Shown here: positions 36,814-44,166 of the stretch, piece after piece
Position numbering within the stretch: the first letter of the stretch is position 1
Layout: each line of letters begins with the position of its first letter
NCBI RefSeq assembly: GCF_004346165.1
Contig: NZ_SLZZ01000001.1
Location: 62,001 to 126,000, forward strand
Source of the DNA: Muricomes intestini
Lineage (GTDB): Bacteria; Bacillota; Clostridia; Lachnospirales; Lachnospiraceae
Length of the DNA stretch: 64,000 bases
Reading direction: 5' to 3'
Program-made: the position numbers and the translations under genes
Notes under the pieces: model-generated
Database searches by the model: none
What the model saw: the letters and a program-made list of their open reading frames with translations, nothing else
Told to the model about the DNA's origin: nothing

Positions 36814-37335
36814 ATGCAGAGAATTGCAAAATTTCACAAAGTAAGCCTGGAGCAATTTAAGAATGATTGGACAGACACTTTTGGATTGGAAGATGAAGAG
36901 ACACTTCGAAATATATATGAAGGAATCAAGCTGCCCAAAAGAGCCACTTCTGGTTCGGCGGGCTATGATTTTTATGCACCGGTGCACTTGGTATTAAAAC
37001 CCGGTGAGACAGTAAAAGTTCCCACGGGTATTCGTGCAGAGATGGAAGAAGGCTGGGTCTTGAAATGTTACCCCAGAAGCGGACTTGCATTCAAATACAG
37101 ACTGCAGATGAATAATACTGTGGGAATCATTGACAGTGACTATTATTACTCTGACAATGAGGGACACATTTTTTCCAAAATGACCAACGACACAAAAGAG
37201 GATAAGACAGTAGACATCAGCAGCGGAGAAGGTTTCATGCAGGGCATATTCGTAGAATATGGAATTACAGTAGATGACGATGCCACAGAAATCAGAAATG
37301 GAGGTTTTGGAAGCACAACCCGTACCGTAAGCTAA
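36814..37335 (+). CDS. dut: dUTP diphosphatase (trimeric type)
   Basis: 173 residues. Conserved dUTPase motifs appear in order: SAGYDFYA (motif 1), PRSGLAFKY (motif 2), GIIDSDYYY (motif 3) and GGFGSTTRT (motif 5, the C-terminal Gly-rich arm). An N-terminal extension of about 40 residues and an insertion (DNEGHIFSKMTNDTKEDKT) between motifs 3 and 4 make it longer than E. coli Dut, as in several clostridial and phage forms. Hydrolyses dUTP to dUMP. ATG 36814 is 7 bases from AGGAG. It follows nrdDG, so dNTP supply and sanitation are encoded together. Confidence 0.9.
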   Translation: MQRIAKFHKVSLEQFKNDWTDTFGLEDEETLRNIYEGIKLPKRATSGSAGYDFYAPVHLVLKPGETVKVPTGIRAEMEEGWVLKCYPRSGLAFKYRLQMNNTVGIIDSDYYYSDNEGHIFSKMTNDTKEDKTVDISSGEGFMQGIFVEYGITVDDDATEIRNGGFGSTTRTVS

Positions 37336-37653
37336 ATGCACCAGGAAGTTAGTTCCCGGATTAATAAGAATATTTTCAGCTTTTGAGATTTGCCATAGGA
37401 TCAATTATCCTATGGCTTTTTGTTTGCCCGCAGCTCGCTGCAATCATGCATCACAAACTTTGGTAAAAATATGGTTACTTCTATGGTATTGATGACGATA
37501 TTAGTAAATGGTATTCGTTTCTGGAGACTGTATAAATTATGAAAATAGAATAAAAATATATAGGATACAGAGGCAGTCATGTATATCGTGTTTCTTATAA
37601 AAAATATGAATAACACAATAAACCTGCCATATGAAAAGGAGAGGATCTAAATT
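37336..37653. other. Gap between dut and the recombinase
   Basis: 318 bases. It holds the dut terminator at 37393-37421 and then an AT-rich region that should contain the recombinase promoter. I see no second copy of the invertible-element repeat here. Confidence 0.5.
37393..37421 (+). terminator. Terminator of the nrdDG-dut transcript
   Basis: CCATAGGAT and ATCCTATGG perfect 9-bp arms, a 5-base loop and CTTTTTG. Confidence 0.85.
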
Positions 37654-38511
37654 ATGTTGCAAAAAGGAAAGAAACGGGTAATTACCCCTAAAATGAGAGA
37701 GTGCTTCGCCGTCTACCTGCGAGAACAGGAGAAAAGCGTTTCCACCATTGAACTCTATCAGCGCAGTCTTTCTTCACTATGCAAATTTCTTGGCGGTGAG
37801 CCGGTCACAAAAAGTGTCTTGATCAAGTGGAAAGAGACCCTGACACAGCAATACGCAGCGACAACAGTCAATACTATGCTGGCTGGAGTCAACGCCTTTT
37901 TGAACTTTGTCAGTTGGATTGACTGTAAGGTAAAACCCCTGAAAATACAGAGAAGTTTGTTTTGCAGGGAGGAAAAGGAGCTTACGCGGGAAGAATATCT
38001 GCGTCTGGTACAAGCGGCCAAAAGAGAGGGTAATGAGCGCCTCTGCCTTGTTTTACAAACCATCTGTGCCACAGGAATCCGAGTTTCTGAACTGCAGTTT
38101 ATCACCATAGAAGCGGCACACATGGGACGGGCGGTCGTAAACTGCAAGGGCAAAACACGTACCATCCTTCTGCCTAAAAAGCTCTGCCATACCTTGATTG
38201 CATATACTCGGAAACAGCAGAGAACCTCAGGGATGGTTTTTATCACAAAAACGGGAAAACCACTTGACCGCTCCAATATCTGGCGAGATATGAAAGGCAT
38301 TTGTGCAAGCGCAGACGTAGCGCCGGAGAAAGTATTTCCCCACAATCTTCGACACTTGTTTGCACGAACTTACTATAAGCTGGAAAAAGATCTGTTTCGG
38401 CTGGCGGATATACTCGGCCACTCCAACGTAAATACCACCCGAATTTATACTATGGAGAGCGGTACTATTCACGCACGTCAGATTGACCGTATGCGGCTGG
38501 CTATCACATAA
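37654..38511 (+). CDS. Tyrosine recombinase (probable DNA invertase of the adjacent switch)
   Basis: 285 residues. A SAM-like N-terminal core-binding domain (about 15-100) precedes the catalytic domain. All catalytic residues are visible: Arg in ATGIRVSEL, Lys in CKGKTR, His-x-x-Arg in HNLRHLFA, His in GHSNV, and Tyr in TRIYTME. It is short and lacks a SAM-like extension seen in ICE integrases, like XerC/D and the phase-variation recombinases of Firmicutes and Bacteroides. Its stop codon lies inside the left inverted repeat of the invertible segment, so inversion does not alter the protein. AAAAGGAG precedes the ATG. Confidence 0.93.
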   Translation: MLQKGKKRVITPKMRECFAVYLREQEKSVSTIELYQRSLSSLCKFLGGEPVTKSVLIKWKETLTQQYAATTVNTMLAGVNAFLNFVSWIDCKVKPLKIQRSLFCREEKELTREEYLRLVQAAKREGNERLCLVLQTICATGIRVSELQFITIEAAHMGRAVVNCKGKTRTILLPKKLCHTLIAYTRKQQRTSGMVFITKTGKPLDRSNIWRDMKGICASADVAPEKVFPHNLRHLFARTYYKLEKDLFRLADILGHSNVNTTRIYTMESGTIHARQIDRMRLAIT

Positions 38512-38528
38512 TTTCTATTTTGTTGTAG
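38507..38528 (+). repeat. Left inverted repeat (IRL) of the invertible segment
   Basis: This 22-base sequence is perfectly complementary to 38761-38782. It starts CATAATTTC and ends TTGTTGTAG and overlaps the recombinase stop codon. Confidence 0.9.
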
Positions 38529-38561
38529 CATGAGTTGCCATTCGACCAATATTTACATAAT

Positions 38562-38589
38562 ACTATACCATTTGATATAGAAATAGCAA
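38562..38589 (-). promoter_or_regulatory. Promoter inside the invertible segment, currently pointing left
   Basis: On the minus strand, TTGCTA (complement of 38584-38589), a 16-base spacer and TATAGT (complement of 38562-38567). A weaker plus-strand candidate (TTGATA at 38572, 17 bases, TTTATA) overlaps it, so the OFF reading is probable, not certain. Confidence 0.5.
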
Positions 38590-38760
38590 GCATTTTTATA
38601 TGAATTAATAACAGTATCCAATCTGTATCAATCATAATTAGAAATTTATGCATGAAGATAAAGCCGGTGGGAGCTATATTTTCCAGCCGGCCTGATTGCT
38701 GTGCCTTTTTATATTTTTTATATTCTCCGCCAGCGAAAAGCTGCATTTATTACGCAGGAA

Positions 38761-38782
38761 CTACAACAAAATAGAAATTATG
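38761..38782 (-). repeat. Right inverted repeat (IRR) of the invertible segment
   Basis: Perfect 22-base complement of 38507-38528, ending 73 bases before the start codon of the diguanylate cyclase gene. Confidence 0.9.
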
Positions 38783-38855
38783 ATGTGATTCATGCTGCAA
38801 AAAGGATGCATGAGAATAATTCAATTGACATAATGTGAGAAGAGGCGAAATATTT

Positions 38856-39569
38856 ATGGAATCAGTTGCTGCGCTTTTGCAGAATTACCTCGACAATGTG
38901 ATTAACGATCCTGAACATGCATATTTGGATTTGAGGCAGCTGCCGGAGGAATTTCGGGAGTTTGGGGAAGGCCTTGTCTATTTTTCTAAGTGTGCCATTG
39001 AAACAGCCGGTTTGGTAAAAGAGCACGCTTTTATGTTCAATGATATAAGCTCTCAAAAGAGGCGTCTTTATGATCTGCAGGTTGCCGCATATACAGATGA
39101 TCTGACACAATTATTTAACCGCCGTTATGGTATGAAGACACTAAATGAGTGGCTCGGCGACAACAGATTATTCATCCTTTGCTTTGCTGATATTGATAAT
39201 CTTAAATACGTAAACGATCAGTTCGGCCACTGTGAAGGAGATAAGTATATTATAGCGGTTGCCGATATATTGCGCGGTTTTTCACAAGAAGCTGTTCTTT
39301 GCCGCATAGGTGGAGATGAGTTTATGATTCTGGCACAAGACTGGAGCGGTGACAGCGCTAACGAACAGATGGAGATGTTGAGGAATAGAGTGATAAACTG
39401 CGAACATATAAGCGGCCGTCATTACTACCGCAATATTAGTTACGGTATTGTTGAGATCCGCACAGATAATACTCTGTCAGCCAGTGATATATTAAGTATT
39501 GCAGACGAGAAAATGTACGAGTATAAGCGTGTACATCATAAAGGCAGAGCAAGAAATAAGAGGAATTAA
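38856..39569 (+). CDS. Diguanylate cyclase (GGDEF domain)
   Basis: 237 residues. An N-terminal region of about 75 residues has no recognised sensor, then the GGDEF domain begins at DDLTQLFNRRYG. The metal-binding FADIDNLKYVND and the intact active-site motif RIGGDEFMIL are present, so it should make c-di-GMP. The inhibitory RxxD I-site is absent (SQEA in its place), so product feedback is not expected. It is the first gene of the operon after the invertible segment and probably supplies c-di-GMP to the PilZ domain of the next gene. The start at ATG 38856 is preceded by AGAAGAGG. Confidence 0.92.
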   Translation: MESVAALLQNYLDNVINDPEHAYLDLRQLPEEFREFGEGLVYFSKCAIETAGLVKEHAFMFNDISSQKRRLYDLQVAAYTDDLTQLFNRRYGMKTLNEWLGDNRLFILCFADIDNLKYVNDQFGHCEGDKYIIAVADILRGFSQEAVLCRIGGDEFMILAQDWSGDSANEQMEMLRNRVINCEHISGRHYYRNISYGIVEIRTDNTLSASDILSIADEKMYEYKRVHHKGRARNKRN

Positions 39570-39579
39570 GAAGAAGCAA

Positions 39580-41154
39580 ATGAAAGATCAAAATCATAAA
39601 AAAGCCATTATTTTGATTCCAGCCTTTGAACCTGATCAGAGCCTCCTATCTTATGTGAATGCGTTACAGGAACATGGCCTTTTGGATATTATTATTGTAG
39701 ATGACGGCTCCGGTCCCTATTTTCTGCTTTCAGAATTCATCAAAGAGGATGGTGTATGGAGGCTTCGCAAAGAGGGTGAAAAAGATAATACATGGAAGCT
39801 GGGTCTGGTGCAGACCCCTCAGAGCTTTTACAATCCGGACTTGTTTCAGTTTAACCTTTTCGCGGAAGGAATTATTCCAAATGAGCAGGATTTCTTTTCG
39901 AAAGAGGTCAATGTTCTGCGGAACGCATCCAATGCGGCGGCTTATACTGGAAGCAATGCAGTGATTTCCCGTCAGGCAATGGAAGACATTGAGGGTTTCC
40001 CGTTGAAAACCATTACGGAAGATTTTGAGACGAGCATACGATTACAGCAGGCCGGCTACATTACATATGCAACGGAAGAAGTTCAGGCGGCCGGCCTGAC
40101 CACGACAATGATTCCCGATATGATTAAGCAGAGGGTCAGGTGGGCACGAGGTGTTTTACAAAGTCTGCAGAACACCGGGGCCATCTTCTCAAAAAAGTTT
40201 TCCTCCTCAGCCAGGGTTACTTATTTAAACAGTTTTCTGTATTGGTGGTCTTTTTTTAACCGGTTGGTTTTTATTATGGCCCCTATTTTGTTTGCCCTGT
40301 TTGATTTTCAGATTGTCAATACAAAGTTCTGGAACATTGTAATTTTTTGGCTGCCCCCCTATTTATGTTATGGCAGGGCAATGCGCTATCTGTCCAGCGA
40401 CATCAGAACCCAGCACTGGAGCCAAGTGGTGGATACGATTTTCATGCCTTATCTGATTCTTCCAGTGTTGCTTGAAACTTTGCATATCCATGAGAAGAAG
40501 TTTAAAGTAACGAATAAAGAGAAAGAGGCAGGCAAAGACAGGCCGTATGATTTTTGGTATGCCATCCCCCATATTCTTTTACTGGCGCTGTCAATCATTG
40601 CTATGTTTCGTTTTGTTCATGAAAAATACGGCTGGACCCTTTTTTACAGCAGCATTATTATTTTTTGGCTGGCCTACAACATTGTTTCTCTGTGCTATGC
40701 TATTTTTTTTATGCTTGGACGACGCGCTTATCGACGGTCTGAGCGCATTCAGGCAAGTGAGACTGTGTATATTCGATATAAGAACCAAAGCTATCAAGCG
40801 GTGACGGGGGATGTGTCTGAGCAAGGCATCTCATTTTATGCCTCCTCCCCAATTTATCTGCCGGAGAAAGATGTGATTCAAATAGTTATTGAAACCGAGC
40901 GTTATAAGGCAAGGCTGGAAGGCTCCATCGTTTACGTGAGACAGGAGAAAGAGGTATGGCGTTACTCTGCCACAGTTACACCGCTGGACGAGACTGATAA
41001 ACGTCAATATATGCAGATTATATATGACCGTCTTCATTCTCTGCCGAAAAAGATTGACCCCTGGGTGACATTTTATGACGACATGCTCCGCAACATAAGA
41101 AAGCGTGTGACAAGTCCCTTTATGAAAAAAAGAAGTAGGAGGACGTTGAAATGA
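39580..41154 (+). CDS. BcsA-like glycosyltransferase with PilZ domain, lacking the DxD segment
   Basis: 524 residues. The N-terminal GT2 strand (KAIILIPAFEPDQ, then IIIVDDGSG, D41/D42) jumps after about 35 residues to the BcsA block LVQTPQSFYNPDLFQFN. TED (146-148) and QRVRW (184-188) follow, then about six membrane spans. At the C terminus is PilZ, with RRSER (R385-R389) and DVSEQG (411-416) intact. Cellulose synthases normally have about 60 more residues here with the DxD motif, and membrane spans before the GT domain; both are missing. It is either an in-frame deletion derivative or a diverged polymerase. It starts 10 bases after the cyclase gene. Confidence 0.85.
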   Translation: MKDQNHKKAIILIPAFEPDQSLLSYVNALQEHGLLDIIIVDDGSGPYFLLSEFIKEDGVWRLRKEGEKDNTWKLGLVQTPQSFYNPDLFQFNLFAEGIIPNEQDFFSKEVNVLRNASNAAAYTGSNAVISRQAMEDIEGFPLKTITEDFETSIRLQQAGYITYATEEVQAAGLTTTMIPDMIKQRVRWARGVLQSLQNTGAIFSKKFSSSARVTYLNSFLYWWSFFNRLVFIMAPILFALFDFQIVNTKFWNIVIFWLPPYLCYGRAMRYLSSDIRTQHWSQVVDTIFMPYLILPVLLETLHIHEKKFKVTNKEKEAGKDRPYDFWYAIPHILLLALSIIAMFRFVHEKYGWTLFYSSIIIFWLAYNIVSLCYAIFFMLGRRAYRRSERIQASETVYIRYKNQSYQAVTGDVSEQGISFYASSPIYLPEKDVIQIVIETERYKARLEGSIVYVRQEKEVWRYSATVTPLDETDKRQYMQIIYDRLHSLPKKIDPWVTFYDDMLRNIRKRVTSPFMKKRSRRTLK

Positions 41155-43016
41155 CAATTATATTTAGGGTTGTTTTTACACTGTTGTTAGCATGTTCTTT
41201 TCTTGGCTATATGCTGCTGACCCGAAAGGTGATTGGGATGAGATGGGAGTTTATCCCCGTATTCGTTTTTTCGGCAGTGGCCTGTATGGTCTATTTTTGC
41301 GGCTTAGCGCATATCCTCTTTGCCGGCTCTATTGTGGTCATGGCGGCAGGCCTAACCGCCTCTGGGATTCTTTTGGTGCAGCGCCTGAAAAGAAAACCGC
41401 CTTTTAAGATTTCATTTTCTCTGTTTCACTTTTTTTGGATTGGAGGCGTTCTGCTATTCTTTTCACTGCTGCTGCGAAGTGAATTAATACATTATGACAA
41501 TTTTTCCCACTGGGCTATCGTGGTGAAGCAGATGCTCAGCACCAATATGTTTCCCACGGCGGATTCTCAGCTAATCGACTTTAAAAATTATCCCCTTGGC
41601 ATATCCGCATTCCTATATTATGTCTGCCGTTTTGTGGGTCATGATCAGCAGGTTATGCTTGTGGCCCAGGGGATGCTGATTTTTTCTTGTTTTTATGCCA
41701 TGTTTGGCATTATATCCGAGAAAAAAAGATTTTTGTTGTATGCTTTTTTAGGACTGGGCTGTGCTTCCCTTTCTCTTTTTAATATTACCATCCGCATCAA
41801 TAATTTATTGGTGGATTTTTTGCTGCCAATCTATACATTGGCTATTTTTGCGATGGCATATTATTACCGTGCAGACCATAAGAGGGCTTTTATCAGTGTT
41901 TTACCTCTTGCAGGTCTGTTGACTGTCACCAAGAGTACAGGTATTATTTTTGCGGTAATTGGTCTGCTTTTTTTATTATATATGGTGTTTTCGCATGGAG
42001 GGGCAACAGCAAAACGGCGTATTTTGGCTTTTTCCGTTATCACATTGCTTGTGGCAGTTTTGCCATATATAGGATGGTCATGGCGTATGAACACAGATTT
42101 GAACGGTGTGACAAATAAGTTTGACATTCAAAATATGCCGGAAGAAAAAACAGCTGTACAGGTACAGAAAATTGTAACGTTGTTTCTCCGCTCCAGTACG
42201 GACATCACAACAAGATCCGCGATGGGAATCCTTGCATTCAACCTTGTGGCTATTGCGGCAATCATTTTCAATGCATTTGTGCTGAAAAAGAAATGGAGGC
42301 TATGGAAGGCGCTCATTGCGCTTGACGCTGTACTGGTTCTGTACTATGTGGGCATTTTAGGTTTGTATATTTTTTCGATGCCTCTGGACGAGGCACTTTG
42401 GCTGGCTGGATTTGAGCGGTACACCTCCAGCATCGTTGTACTTTTTGCAGGAGGACTGGTTCTTACTGCCACGGTTGATATTGAGAATTCATTTTACTAC
42501 AGAGTTGGACAGATGCCTGACGGACATGCATTTTACGATGCAAAAAGCAAGCGCCTCTATCAACAGGGTGTCCTGGTTTGCATGGCGCTTGCAATTACTC
42601 TGCTTCTGTCGGAGTATAACGGCATTCTTTCGACTATACAAAGCTATAATACCTCGCTGCCGCATAAGATTAAAATAGTGACAGGAGACCGCTGGTATGG
42701 AAATGGTAAGGAGGATGAAAGCAGATATCTTTTTTATGCGCCGGACAAAGACGCACAGGTTACCAATTTTTACATGCAATATGCAGGACGGTATTTTCTA
42801 TATGCACCCAAGGTGGATGGCATTTGCCTGTTCTATGAGGACAATATGGAAAACTTATTGAGCAGCTATGATTATCTGATTATAGTGGAAAGCGATACCA
42901 GTGCGCGGTATTTGCTTCGAAAGCATTATGGTGTGACTGGGAAGGAGGGAATTTACAGGATTGTAAGCAGGGAAGGGCAGGCAGTGCTTATCTTGGAGGG
43001 AAGCGGGGGAAAGTAA
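41151..43016 (+). CDS. Polytopic membrane protein, possible GT-C-type glycosyltransferase
   Basis: 621 residues with about 11-12 transmembrane segments in the first 470 residues and a C-terminal extracytoplasmic domain of about 130 residues (ITGDRWYGNGKEDE-like polar region). An early loop (RSELIHYDNFSHWAIV) with an Asp after the second or third span is reminiscent of the Asp-containing first loop of GT-C enzymes that use polyprenyl-phosphate sugars. I cannot place it in a named family. It overlaps the preceding gene by 4 bases (ATGA) and is followed by the GH5 gene after 4 bases, so it is part of the polysaccharide operon. Confidence 0.75.
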   Translation: MTIIFRVVFTLLLACSFLGYMLLTRKVIGMRWEFIPVFVFSAVACMVYFCGLAHILFAGSIVVMAAGLTASGILLVQRLKRKPPFKISFSLFHFFWIGGVLLFFSLLLRSELIHYDNFSHWAIVVKQMLSTNMFPTADSQLIDFKNYPLGISAFLYYVCRFVGHDQQVMLVAQGMLIFSCFYAMFGIISEKKRFLLYAFLGLGCASLSLFNITIRINNLLVDFLLPIYTLAIFAMAYYYRADHKRAFISVLPLAGLLTVTKSTGIIFAVIGLLFLLYMVFSHGGATAKRRILAFSVITLLVAVLPYIGWSWRMNTDLNGVTNKFDIQNMPEEKTAVQVQKIVTLFLRSSTDITTRSAMGILAFNLVAIAAIIFNAFVLKKKWRLWKALIALDAVLVLYYVGILGLYIFSMPLDEALWLAGFERYTSSIVVLFAGGLVLTATVDIENSFYYRVGQMPDGHAFYDAKSKRLYQQGVLVCMALAITLLLSEYNGILSTIQSYNTSLPHKIKIVTGDRWYGNGKEDESRYLFYAPDKDAQVTNFYMQYAGRYFLYAPKVDGICLFYEDNMENLLSSYDYLIIVESDTSARYLLRKHYGVTGKEGIYRIVSREGQAVLILEGSGGK

Positions 43017-43020
43017 TCGA

Positions 43021-44166
43021 ATGAAACGGCATAATTACCGATTCTATGTTTACAAACATATCTCAACGGTCATTTTCATTGCTGCAACAGGAATTCTGGC
43101 GCTGAGCAGTTGGCGTGGGATAGAGAGAGGGTGGATGATGAAATATCAGGAAAAAGAAACCAGAAACTTTGTGAAGCAGCTGGGCCCGGGGTTGAATTGG
43201 GGCAACACCCTGGATACACATGACCTCCACCTTGAGACAAAAAACCCCTCTGATTTTGAAACATATTGGGGAAATCCGGTTACAACCAGGGAAATGATCA
43301 AAGATATCAAACAAACAGGTTTTGATGTGCTGCGTATTCCTGTCACTTGGCAGGAACATATGGATGAAAATGATCATATAGAAAAGGCCTGGCTTAACCG
43401 TGTCGCTCAGGTGGTGGATTATGGCTTAGAGGCAGGTATGTATGTGATTATCAATGCACATCATGACAGCTGGTATATGCCTGATGATGTACATTTGCCA
43501 ACGGCAGTTGAGAAGACACGGCATCTGTGGAGCCAGCTTGCTCAGCGTTTTCAGGCATATGACCAAAGACTTTTATTTGAAGGCATGAATGAACCACGCC
43601 TGATTGGAGAAATCGAGGAATGGAGCGGGGGCACCCCACGTTCACGGGAAATAGTCAATATATTAAACGCAGTTTTTGTGCGCACCATTCGCGAGAGCGG
43701 CGGAGAAAACAATGACAGGTACCTGATTCTTTCTACCTATTGTGCAAAGACATATAGGGAGGTATTACAGGATTTTCAATTTCCTGAGGGGAGCAGACTT
43801 ATTTTATCGGTACATTTTTATTCCCCATATGACTTTTCTTTAAACATACAGGGGCCGCCTGGGTTTGACCCTAAAGACCCGCTGGACACAAAAGAGATGG
43901 ACCAGATGTTTGAGGACCTGGATCGATTTTTTATAAGTAAGGGTATGCCTGTCATAATCACAGAATTTGGCGCCGTCGATAAACAAAACGAACGGCAGCG
44001 TACAGCTTGGGCCCGCTATGTCAGAGGAAAAGCAAAAAAACTTGGGATCGCCTGTATCTGGTGGGATGCCGGTTCGGGTGAAAAGACAGGCAGGCCGTTC
44101 CCACTTTATGACAGGTATACCCGCCAATGGCTGTTTCCTGATTTGACGGAAGCGTTAACCGAATAG
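43021..44166 (+). CDS. Membrane-anchored GH5 endoglucanase (BcsZ/CcsZ-like role)
   Basis: 381 residues. A basic N terminus and one membrane anchor (about residues 14-31) leave a GH5 catalytic domain outside the cell. GLNWGNTLDTHD, LRIPVTWQEH, INAHHDSWY, FEGMNEPRL (Glu = acid/base) and VIITEFGAVD (Glu = nucleophile) all fit GH5 cellulases. Endoglucanases are constant partners of cellulose synthase operons (BcsZ, and CcsZ in Clostridioides difficile), where they trim or release nascent glucan. Its presence here supports a beta-1,4-glucan-type product. It is the last gene of the four-gene operon. Confidence 0.92.
   Translation: MKRHNYRFYVYKHISTVIFIAATGILALSSWRGIERGWMMKYQEKETRNFVKQLGPGLNWGNTLDTHDLHLETKNPSDFETYWGNPVTTREMIKDIKQTGFDVLRIPVTWQEHMDENDHIEKAWLNRVAQVVDYGLEAGMYVIINAHHDSWYMPDDVHLPTAVEKTRHLWSQLAQRFQAYDQRLLFEGMNEPRLIGEIEEWSGGTPRSREIVNILNAVFVRTIRESGGENNDRYLILSTYCAKTYREVLQDFQFPEGSRLILSVHFYSPYDFSLNIQGPPGFDPKDPLDTKEMDQMFEDLDRFFISKGMPVIITEFGAVDKQNERQRTAWARYVRGKAKKLGIACIWWDAGSGEKTGRPFPLYDRYTRQWLFPDLTEALTE

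Follow-up and report, generated by a model that had tools for sequence, protein, structure and literature searches.

A probable recombinase-driven promoter switch ahead of a diguanylate cyclase gene in Muricomes intestini

Described switches and the layout of the locus

Invertible promoters over genes for c-di-GMP enzymes, the arrangement proposed here, have been described for pdcB and pdcC of C. difficile. In that account (PMC9286219), both targets are phosphodiesterases, whereas ours is a cyclase, and the pdcB switch, which is OFF in the reference genome like the copy reported here, has imperfect 19-bp arms, lies 840 bp upstream of pdcB, and is served by a recombinase stated as not identified. 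The cwpV switch of the same species (PMC2784873) depends on RecV, a tyrosine recombinase of the XerC/XerD type as here, and has a similar layout, with 21-bp arms, a 195-bp segment, and 57 bp to the gene. According to the same source, however, its arms are imperfect, RecV is not encoded near cwpV, and the promoter lies outside the segment, with a terminator proposed, all of which differs from our reading of the present element. In the E. coli fim system (fimE and fimS are cited in PMC2784873), the end of a recombinase gene likewise coincides with the switch. With such an arrangement, orientation can alter the recombinase's own transcript. The fim system uses two recombinases, fimB and fimE, whereas we find a single one, with its stop codon in an arm.

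On a broader scale, a survey of invertible sites (PMC5903667) names intracellular signalling and chemotaxis as the commonest functions near such sites in Clostridia, and a study of the hCom2 gut community (PMC11892184, Microbiome 2025) defines inverton group 139 and invertase group 35. Group 139 comprises 33 invertons, 32 of them from the class Clostridia and nearly all near a tyrosine-type recombinase; orientation shifts were seen in reads, for example, in Clostridium sp. D5, for which the printed coordinates give 26-bp arms with 205 bp between them.

The window analyzed here is a 64-kb stretch (64,000 nucleotides) of the M. intestini genome, in which the element sits between two plus-strand genes. 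The first of these (37654 to 38511) encodes a tyrosine recombinase of 285 amino acids (PF00589, 3.6e-26; PF02899, 4e-7), the presumed invertase, whose reading frame is complete; the second (38856 to 39569), the first gene of the switched unit, encodes a diguanylate cyclase of 237 amino acids (PF00990, 1.2e-29) with a GGDEF motif in its translation. Between them, two 22-nucleotide arms (38507 to 38528, plus strand, and 38761 to 38782, minus strand) are 100% complementary and enclose the presumed invertible segment (38529 to 38760), 232 bp with a G+C content of 34%, compared to 44% for the window. The corresponding 24-bp core sites are at 38503 to 38526 (ATCACATAATTTCTATTTTGTTGT) and, as the reverse complement, at 38763 to 38786. 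Since the recombinase stop codon (TAA, 38509 to 38511) sits inside the left arm, the recombinase protein would be unaltered by inversion; 73 bases separate the right arm from the ATG of the cyclase gene (38856). A previous sequence-only reading had proposed this geometry, namely, a perfect 22-bp inverted repeat around 232 bases, a recombinase stop codon in the left arm, and a distance of 73 bases to the cyclase gene, and all three points were recovered here.

Among the perfect inverted repeats in the window with a spacing of 60 to 1500 bp, this pair was the longest. The longest repeat reached 15 bp in 60 Markov shuffles of the window and 16 bp in 30 shuffles with the local AT-rich composition, which excludes a chance origin. 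When the element and its arms were searched against the 3.7-Mb, 69-contig genome, matches with an E value of ≤0.001 were confined to the locus itself, and an Rfam search of positions 37300 to 39000 (E values up to 1) matched nothing.

Taken together, the inverted repeats, their association with a recombinase family, the consensus of the recombination site, and the promoter placement and opposite orientations seen in relatives make it highly probable, in our view, that the element is an inverton, i.e., a recombinase-driven phase-variation cassette ahead of a c-di-GMP gene.

The recombinase family, its repeats, and its promoters

When 397 genomes sampled from the same taxonomic family were searched, 98, our own included, carried a member of the recombinase family (E ≤ 1e-30), 73 of them with values below 1e-59. 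Repeats were checked in a fetched subset of the family, for which the highest-ranking matches were generally chosen rather than a random sample, and flanks were also taken at nine named loci and further places. The census of repeats covered 50 distinct copies (the window included) with at least 600 bp of downstream sequence, after 7 of 57 had been set aside as shorter. A perfect inverted repeat of at least 15 bp, beginning no more than 100 bp from the stop codon, was found in 46 of the 50, and at a threshold of at least 13 bp the count rose to 49, with L112 as the exception. None of 44 upstream stretches and none of 500 shuffles contained such a repeat, and among the other PF00589 hits of the same genome, only 1 of 15 did (16 bp, with a 59-bp spacing). 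These counts link a tyrosine-type recombinase to repeats at the end of its gene, and the catalytic residues are kept in our copy: R143, K165/K167, H230, R233, H256, and Y265 were invariant across 20 aligned recombinases, including our own. Matches of the recombinase to PDB sequences comprised XerC-like, XerA, XerD, and XerH chains and one odd chain.

As in the window, the left arm overlaps the gene end in 18 of 49 copies. When 48 left arms were aligned (one had some unreadable bases, and both L022 and L023 were counted), they yielded the consensus ACAACATAAT-nnnn-ATTATGTTGT, i.e., conserved halves around a variable 4-bp center. Such a layout is expected of the core site of a tyrosine recombinase. 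The identity of the two centers within one locus is partly built in, since perfect repeats were required by the search. The arm and segment sizes printed in PMC11892184 are compatible with our element, and inverton group 139, with invertase group 35, likely corresponds to this family; the words "cyclase," "c-di-GMP," and "GGDEF" do not occur in the main text of that paper.

Several further observations concern the distribution of repeats and sites. At L131, on contig C6 of the same genome, five tyrosine-recombinase hits lie within approximately 4 kb, and a 16-bp inverted repeat with a 59-bp spacing stands 7 bp behind the last of them. Matches to ACATAATNNNNATTWTGT with at most one mismatch occur in the genome 10 times in forward and 11 times in reverse orientation (3 and 4 times for the reversed pattern); 3 of these 21 matches are the switch itself, and the rest are found at L141 to L147 and further places. 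To the right of the right arm, a short plus-strand frame (MLQKGCMRIIQLT plus stop, 38792 to 38833) matches the recombinase start at 14 of 15 nucleotides, a score reached by 0.3% of shuffles against the gene start and by 0.5% against the whole gene, and, like the recombinase gene, terminates in ACATAA. It may be a remnant of a second recombinase gene, possibly the relic of a second, tandem cassette (compare the two cassettes in L093).

Members of the family are also present on contigs of a viral collection (L148 to L162). Of the 17 closer relatives there, 12 have usable downstream sequence and 11 carry a repeat of at least 15 bp; L163 has none, and L150 and L151 are identical. At L154, an endosialidase-chaperone protein is encoded upstream and an SPFH protein on the downstream side, so phages or proviruses may be the carriers of some cassettes. 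Four contigs of the collection (L155, L157, L158, and L159) end 3 to 9 bp past the recombinase match; since provirus trimming at gene ends would presumably look alike, we did not count these ends as evidence of inversion. Both the viral-collection relatives and these contig ends would fit a mobile-element integrase, with the repeats as remnants of attachment sites or terminal repeats that lack any regulatory role. We regard this explanation as very improbable, given that the repeats are inverted, perfect, and in 46 of 50 copies fixed in position with respect to the gene, that a positioned promoter lies between them, and that none was found in the 9 of 63 more distant viral-collection relatives (30 to 36% identity) in which a repeat was sought.

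In 42 of 45 elements, the window included, the −10 box of the best sigma-70-like site ends 15 to 60 nucleotides inside the arm that it faces, compared to a mean of 8.7 and a maximum of 17 in 200 shuffle sets. Six of 51 elements were omitted from this analysis because of arms shorter than 15 bp (L090, L017, and L016), pairing with L022 (L023), or unreadable bases in the segment (L026 and L108). In the window's element, the best site (TTGCTA-16-TATAGT, with an extended TG −10; minus strand, 38562 to 38589) has its −10 box ending 33 nucleotides inside the arm that it faces, the position typical of the relatives; individually, it is weak, with an equal or higher score in 16% of its shuffles, and a plain scan of the region returned 4 promoter-like sites where 2.8 (standard deviation, 1.8) were expected. 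The segment also holds a hairpin followed, some 14 nucleotides downstream, by a T-rich stretch (plus strand, about 38663 to 38691), which might act as a terminator. The sequence-only reading had placed both a promoter and a hairpin in the segment: both could be located, but neither individually exceeds its shuffles, the fold of 38645 to 38730 (−20.6 kcal/mol) having a z score of −1.15. One terminator-like site, on the minus strand (38757 to 38741), was returned by a pattern scan.

An alternative without a moving promoter would be control of termination and readthrough, as proposed for cwpV of C. difficile, the precedent (PMC2784873), with an upstream promoter reaching the cyclase gene in one orientation only. 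The recombinase gene does aim at the cyclase gene through the segment, so that its own promoter or a plus-strand site at 38483 to 38512, which runs across the left arm (score, 11.1; 10 of 12 positions matching), could serve as the source, and hairpin structures are present inside the segment. The hairpin, however, is no better than shuffles, the family-wide test of opposed promoter and terminator directions (24 versus 16 among 49 elements) was not significant and was discarded, and the fixed position of the promoter across the family points to a promoter switch; we therefore consider readthrough control unlikely. A second plus-strand site outside the segment (38825 to 38854) stops 2 bases ahead of the cyclase ATG. 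As both of these fixed sites, with a score of 11.1, come close to the segment site (12.3), the OFF state might leak.

Orientation and targets among relatives

The best promoter site of the element runs from 38589 to 38562, away from the cyclase gene, so this copy reads as OFF, in line with the sequence-only reading, which had the better promoter directed away from the operon; after inversion, the site would occupy 38700 to 38727 on the plus strand. Over the 45 elements, 30 had their best promoter directed away from the gene behind the element and 8 had it directed toward that gene, the direction being unclear in 7 (P = 0.0005 versus shuffles), and most of these assemblies thus appear to be OFF. 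Growth state, assembly, and feedback are candidate causes of this bias.

Opposite segment orientations between colinear flanks were found in three sets of relatives. In two metagenome-assembled genomes (L022 and L023), the segments are reverse complementary at 215 of 216 bases, while the flanks are colinear and 97.5% and 99.4% identical. Two cassettes in one genome (L101 and L103) share flanks of approximately 79 to 80% identity around a 121-bp inverted stretch at 77%, and a sister genome (L095) is oriented like L101 and opposite to L103. Finally, L150 and L162, with flanks at 73 to 79%, differ by an inverted stretch of 241 bp, arms included, at 71% identity. In a comparison of alignable segment pairs, most shared one orientation (9, versus 3 inverted). 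For the window segment itself, comparison with L018, L073, L162, and L149 gave no orientation score clearly above shuffles, and no counterpart of this segment turned up; that the window copy flips is thus inferred. Contig ends were also considered as a trace of mixed orientations and rejected: within 300 bp, 5 of 61 downstream and 3 of 64 upstream stretches ended (P = 0.48), or 8 of 79 and 4 of 87 after further known contig ends had been added.

The targets of the cassettes were read from 38 downstream proteins at 33 loci, not always the first gene, plus seven at six viral-collection loci. They include sortase, pilin, and (weakly) TasA/camelysin-like proteins, Wzz and sugar transferases, surface proteins of the choline-binding and leucine-rich kinds, regulators, and a histidine kinase; for 7 of the 38, no match was obtained. 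In the recombinase tree, the window copy groups with L018 (support, 100/85), and L018 (72%) stands ahead of a GGDEF-EAL gene. At L026, which is fragmentary and outside the tree, the next gene is 50% identical to the GGDEF region of L018, and at L148 (63%), which belongs to a weakly supported neighboring group, a response-regulator-GGDEF gene comes next and then a PilZ gene. As the window cyclase shares only some 30% identity with that of L018, these targets are alike in function rather than close copies. Clustering of target labels on the tree was clear for pili (1 of 500 shuffles as low) and not clear for c-di-GMP (99 of 500), and the downstream proteins scanned or read for the near relatives L073, L077, and L149/L150/L162 contained no GGDEF domain. 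A similar ParB_N-type protein lies downstream in L149 (4898 to 6112, for which the Pfam match is shown), L150 (4891 to 6009), and L162 (1500 to 2660).

A wider proposal, which we put forward tentatively, is that of a portable cassette of Lachnospiraceae type that would have been placed ahead of genes for pili, polysaccharides, surface proteins, and c-di-GMP enzymes, with the window, L018, and L026 as a small GGDEF branch. In the OFF state, its promoter would run antisense into its own recombinase gene, so that orientation would feed back on the flipping rate and bias the population to OFF; the 30 of 38 clear cases are the counts cited for such a bias.

An apparently damaged operon and the proposed output

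Behind the cyclase gene, the operon continues on the plus strand with a fusion gene (39580 to 41154), a gene for a membrane protein without a Pfam or NCBIfam match (41151 to 43016; relatives in 15 of 397 genomes, our own included), and a gene for a GH5 glycosidase (43021 to 44166; PF00150, 2e-63). The cyclase, membrane protein, and GH5 frames are open, and the PilZ domain (PF07238) of the fusion gene and its GH5 partner are both present. Two genomes carry the parts of the fusion as separate genes: in G003, of the same genus (L113), glycosyltransferase A consists of GT2 plus GtrA, and synthase B has 793 amino acids with PilZ, and in G347 (L114), glycosyltransferase A is accompanied by a synthase B of 757 amino acids. 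The window gene joins approximately 45 residues of A, in frame, to the C-terminal part of B with PilZ, from residue 186 (L114) or 221 (L113) onward. With L114 as the reference, the two sides of the fusion lie 1510 bp apart and meet at a point junction near 39714; near the 3' end of B, another 0.26 to 0.29 kb is missing from the window gene. The part lost from B, up to residue 185 (L114) or 220 (L113), includes a DAD motif present in both, and a search of our own genome with the L113 protein returned no second copy of the synthase. As assembled, the gene is an in-frame fusion in which a deletion of approximately 1.5 kb, which may be fixed, a variant, or an assembly fault, has removed the catalytic half of the synthase. 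In what the sequence-only reading had called a cyclase/PilZ-glycosyltransferase/GH5 module, the glycosyltransferase looks broken, and the idea that the switch controls a functional exopolysaccharide operon finds no support.

The combination of a cellulose-synthase-like gene with a GH5 enzyme recalls the clostridial ccsZABHI operon (PMC7710045), from which the present operon differs in that its relatives carry an extra GT2-GtrA gene and that the window synthase is truncated; an acetyltransferase of the ccsH or ccsI type was absent from the operon proteins scanned. In 14 stretches around relatives of the operon, three of which (L116, L117, and L125) start at a contig edge, protein comparison revealed no relative of the recombinase, and its site had no close match there, the nearest (three mismatches, L123) falling inside the membrane-protein frame.

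Decay of the locus would be compatible with both the damaged synthase and what may be a recombinase remnant. They would suit a switch that was formerly active and is now locked in its OFF orientation, with an operon that is seldom if ever expressed and therefore erodes, and both the OFF state of the assembly and the two stretches missing from the fusion gene (~1.5 kb and 0.26 to 0.29 kb) are in keeping with this. A full-length recombinase with its catalytic residues, arms still perfectly matched over 22 bp, and open frames for the cyclase, the membrane protein, and GH5 argue otherwise, and we judge a locked switch improbable.

For the inverton, which we continue to prefer, we infer the action of the recombinase on these arms, the flipping of this copy, and the resulting ON and OFF outputs. 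The recombinase would bind two copies of the dyad site (ACATAATTTCTATTTTGT core) and invert the 232-bp segment, in which one main promoter is predicted near the left end. In the assembled state, this promoter would face left and enter the recombinase gene at its 3' end, leaving the cyclase OFF; in the inverted state, it would face right, its −10 box 33 nucleotides inside the right arm and 128 nucleotides ahead of the cyclase ATG, and the cyclase gene and the genes behind it would be transcribed. With the catalytic half of the synthase missing, polymer synthesis is an unlikely output in this genome; the likely one would be a stochastic setting of c-di-GMP by the intact cyclase, perhaps together with the GH5 enzyme. 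The sequence-only reading had taken recombinase, inverted repeats, and promoter together for a phase switch, and the conserved family geometry, the shared site, the promoter position, and the orientations in relatives bear this out. Its further remark that control of such a module in this way was, to its knowledge, not described for this group overstated the novelty, since invertons of Clostridia near tyrosine recombinases and phase-variable c-di-GMP enzymes have been published (PMC11892184, PMC9286219, and PMC5903667); our literature searches returned no paper joining invertons or phase variation with Lachnospiraceae.

What is newly added here is the rule for the family: a cassette at the gene end, a shared site, and a fixed place for the promoter. 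A switch, its likely enzyme, and the recombination site are thereby tied together by sequence for one recombinase family, and through this association phase variation in the group becomes predictable from sequence. The damaged synthase also serves as a caution: a clone chosen for sequencing may carry broken genes behind its switch. If the cyclase is indeed controlled in this way, the c-di-GMP level, and hence lifestyle, would be set by chance in single cells and inherited.
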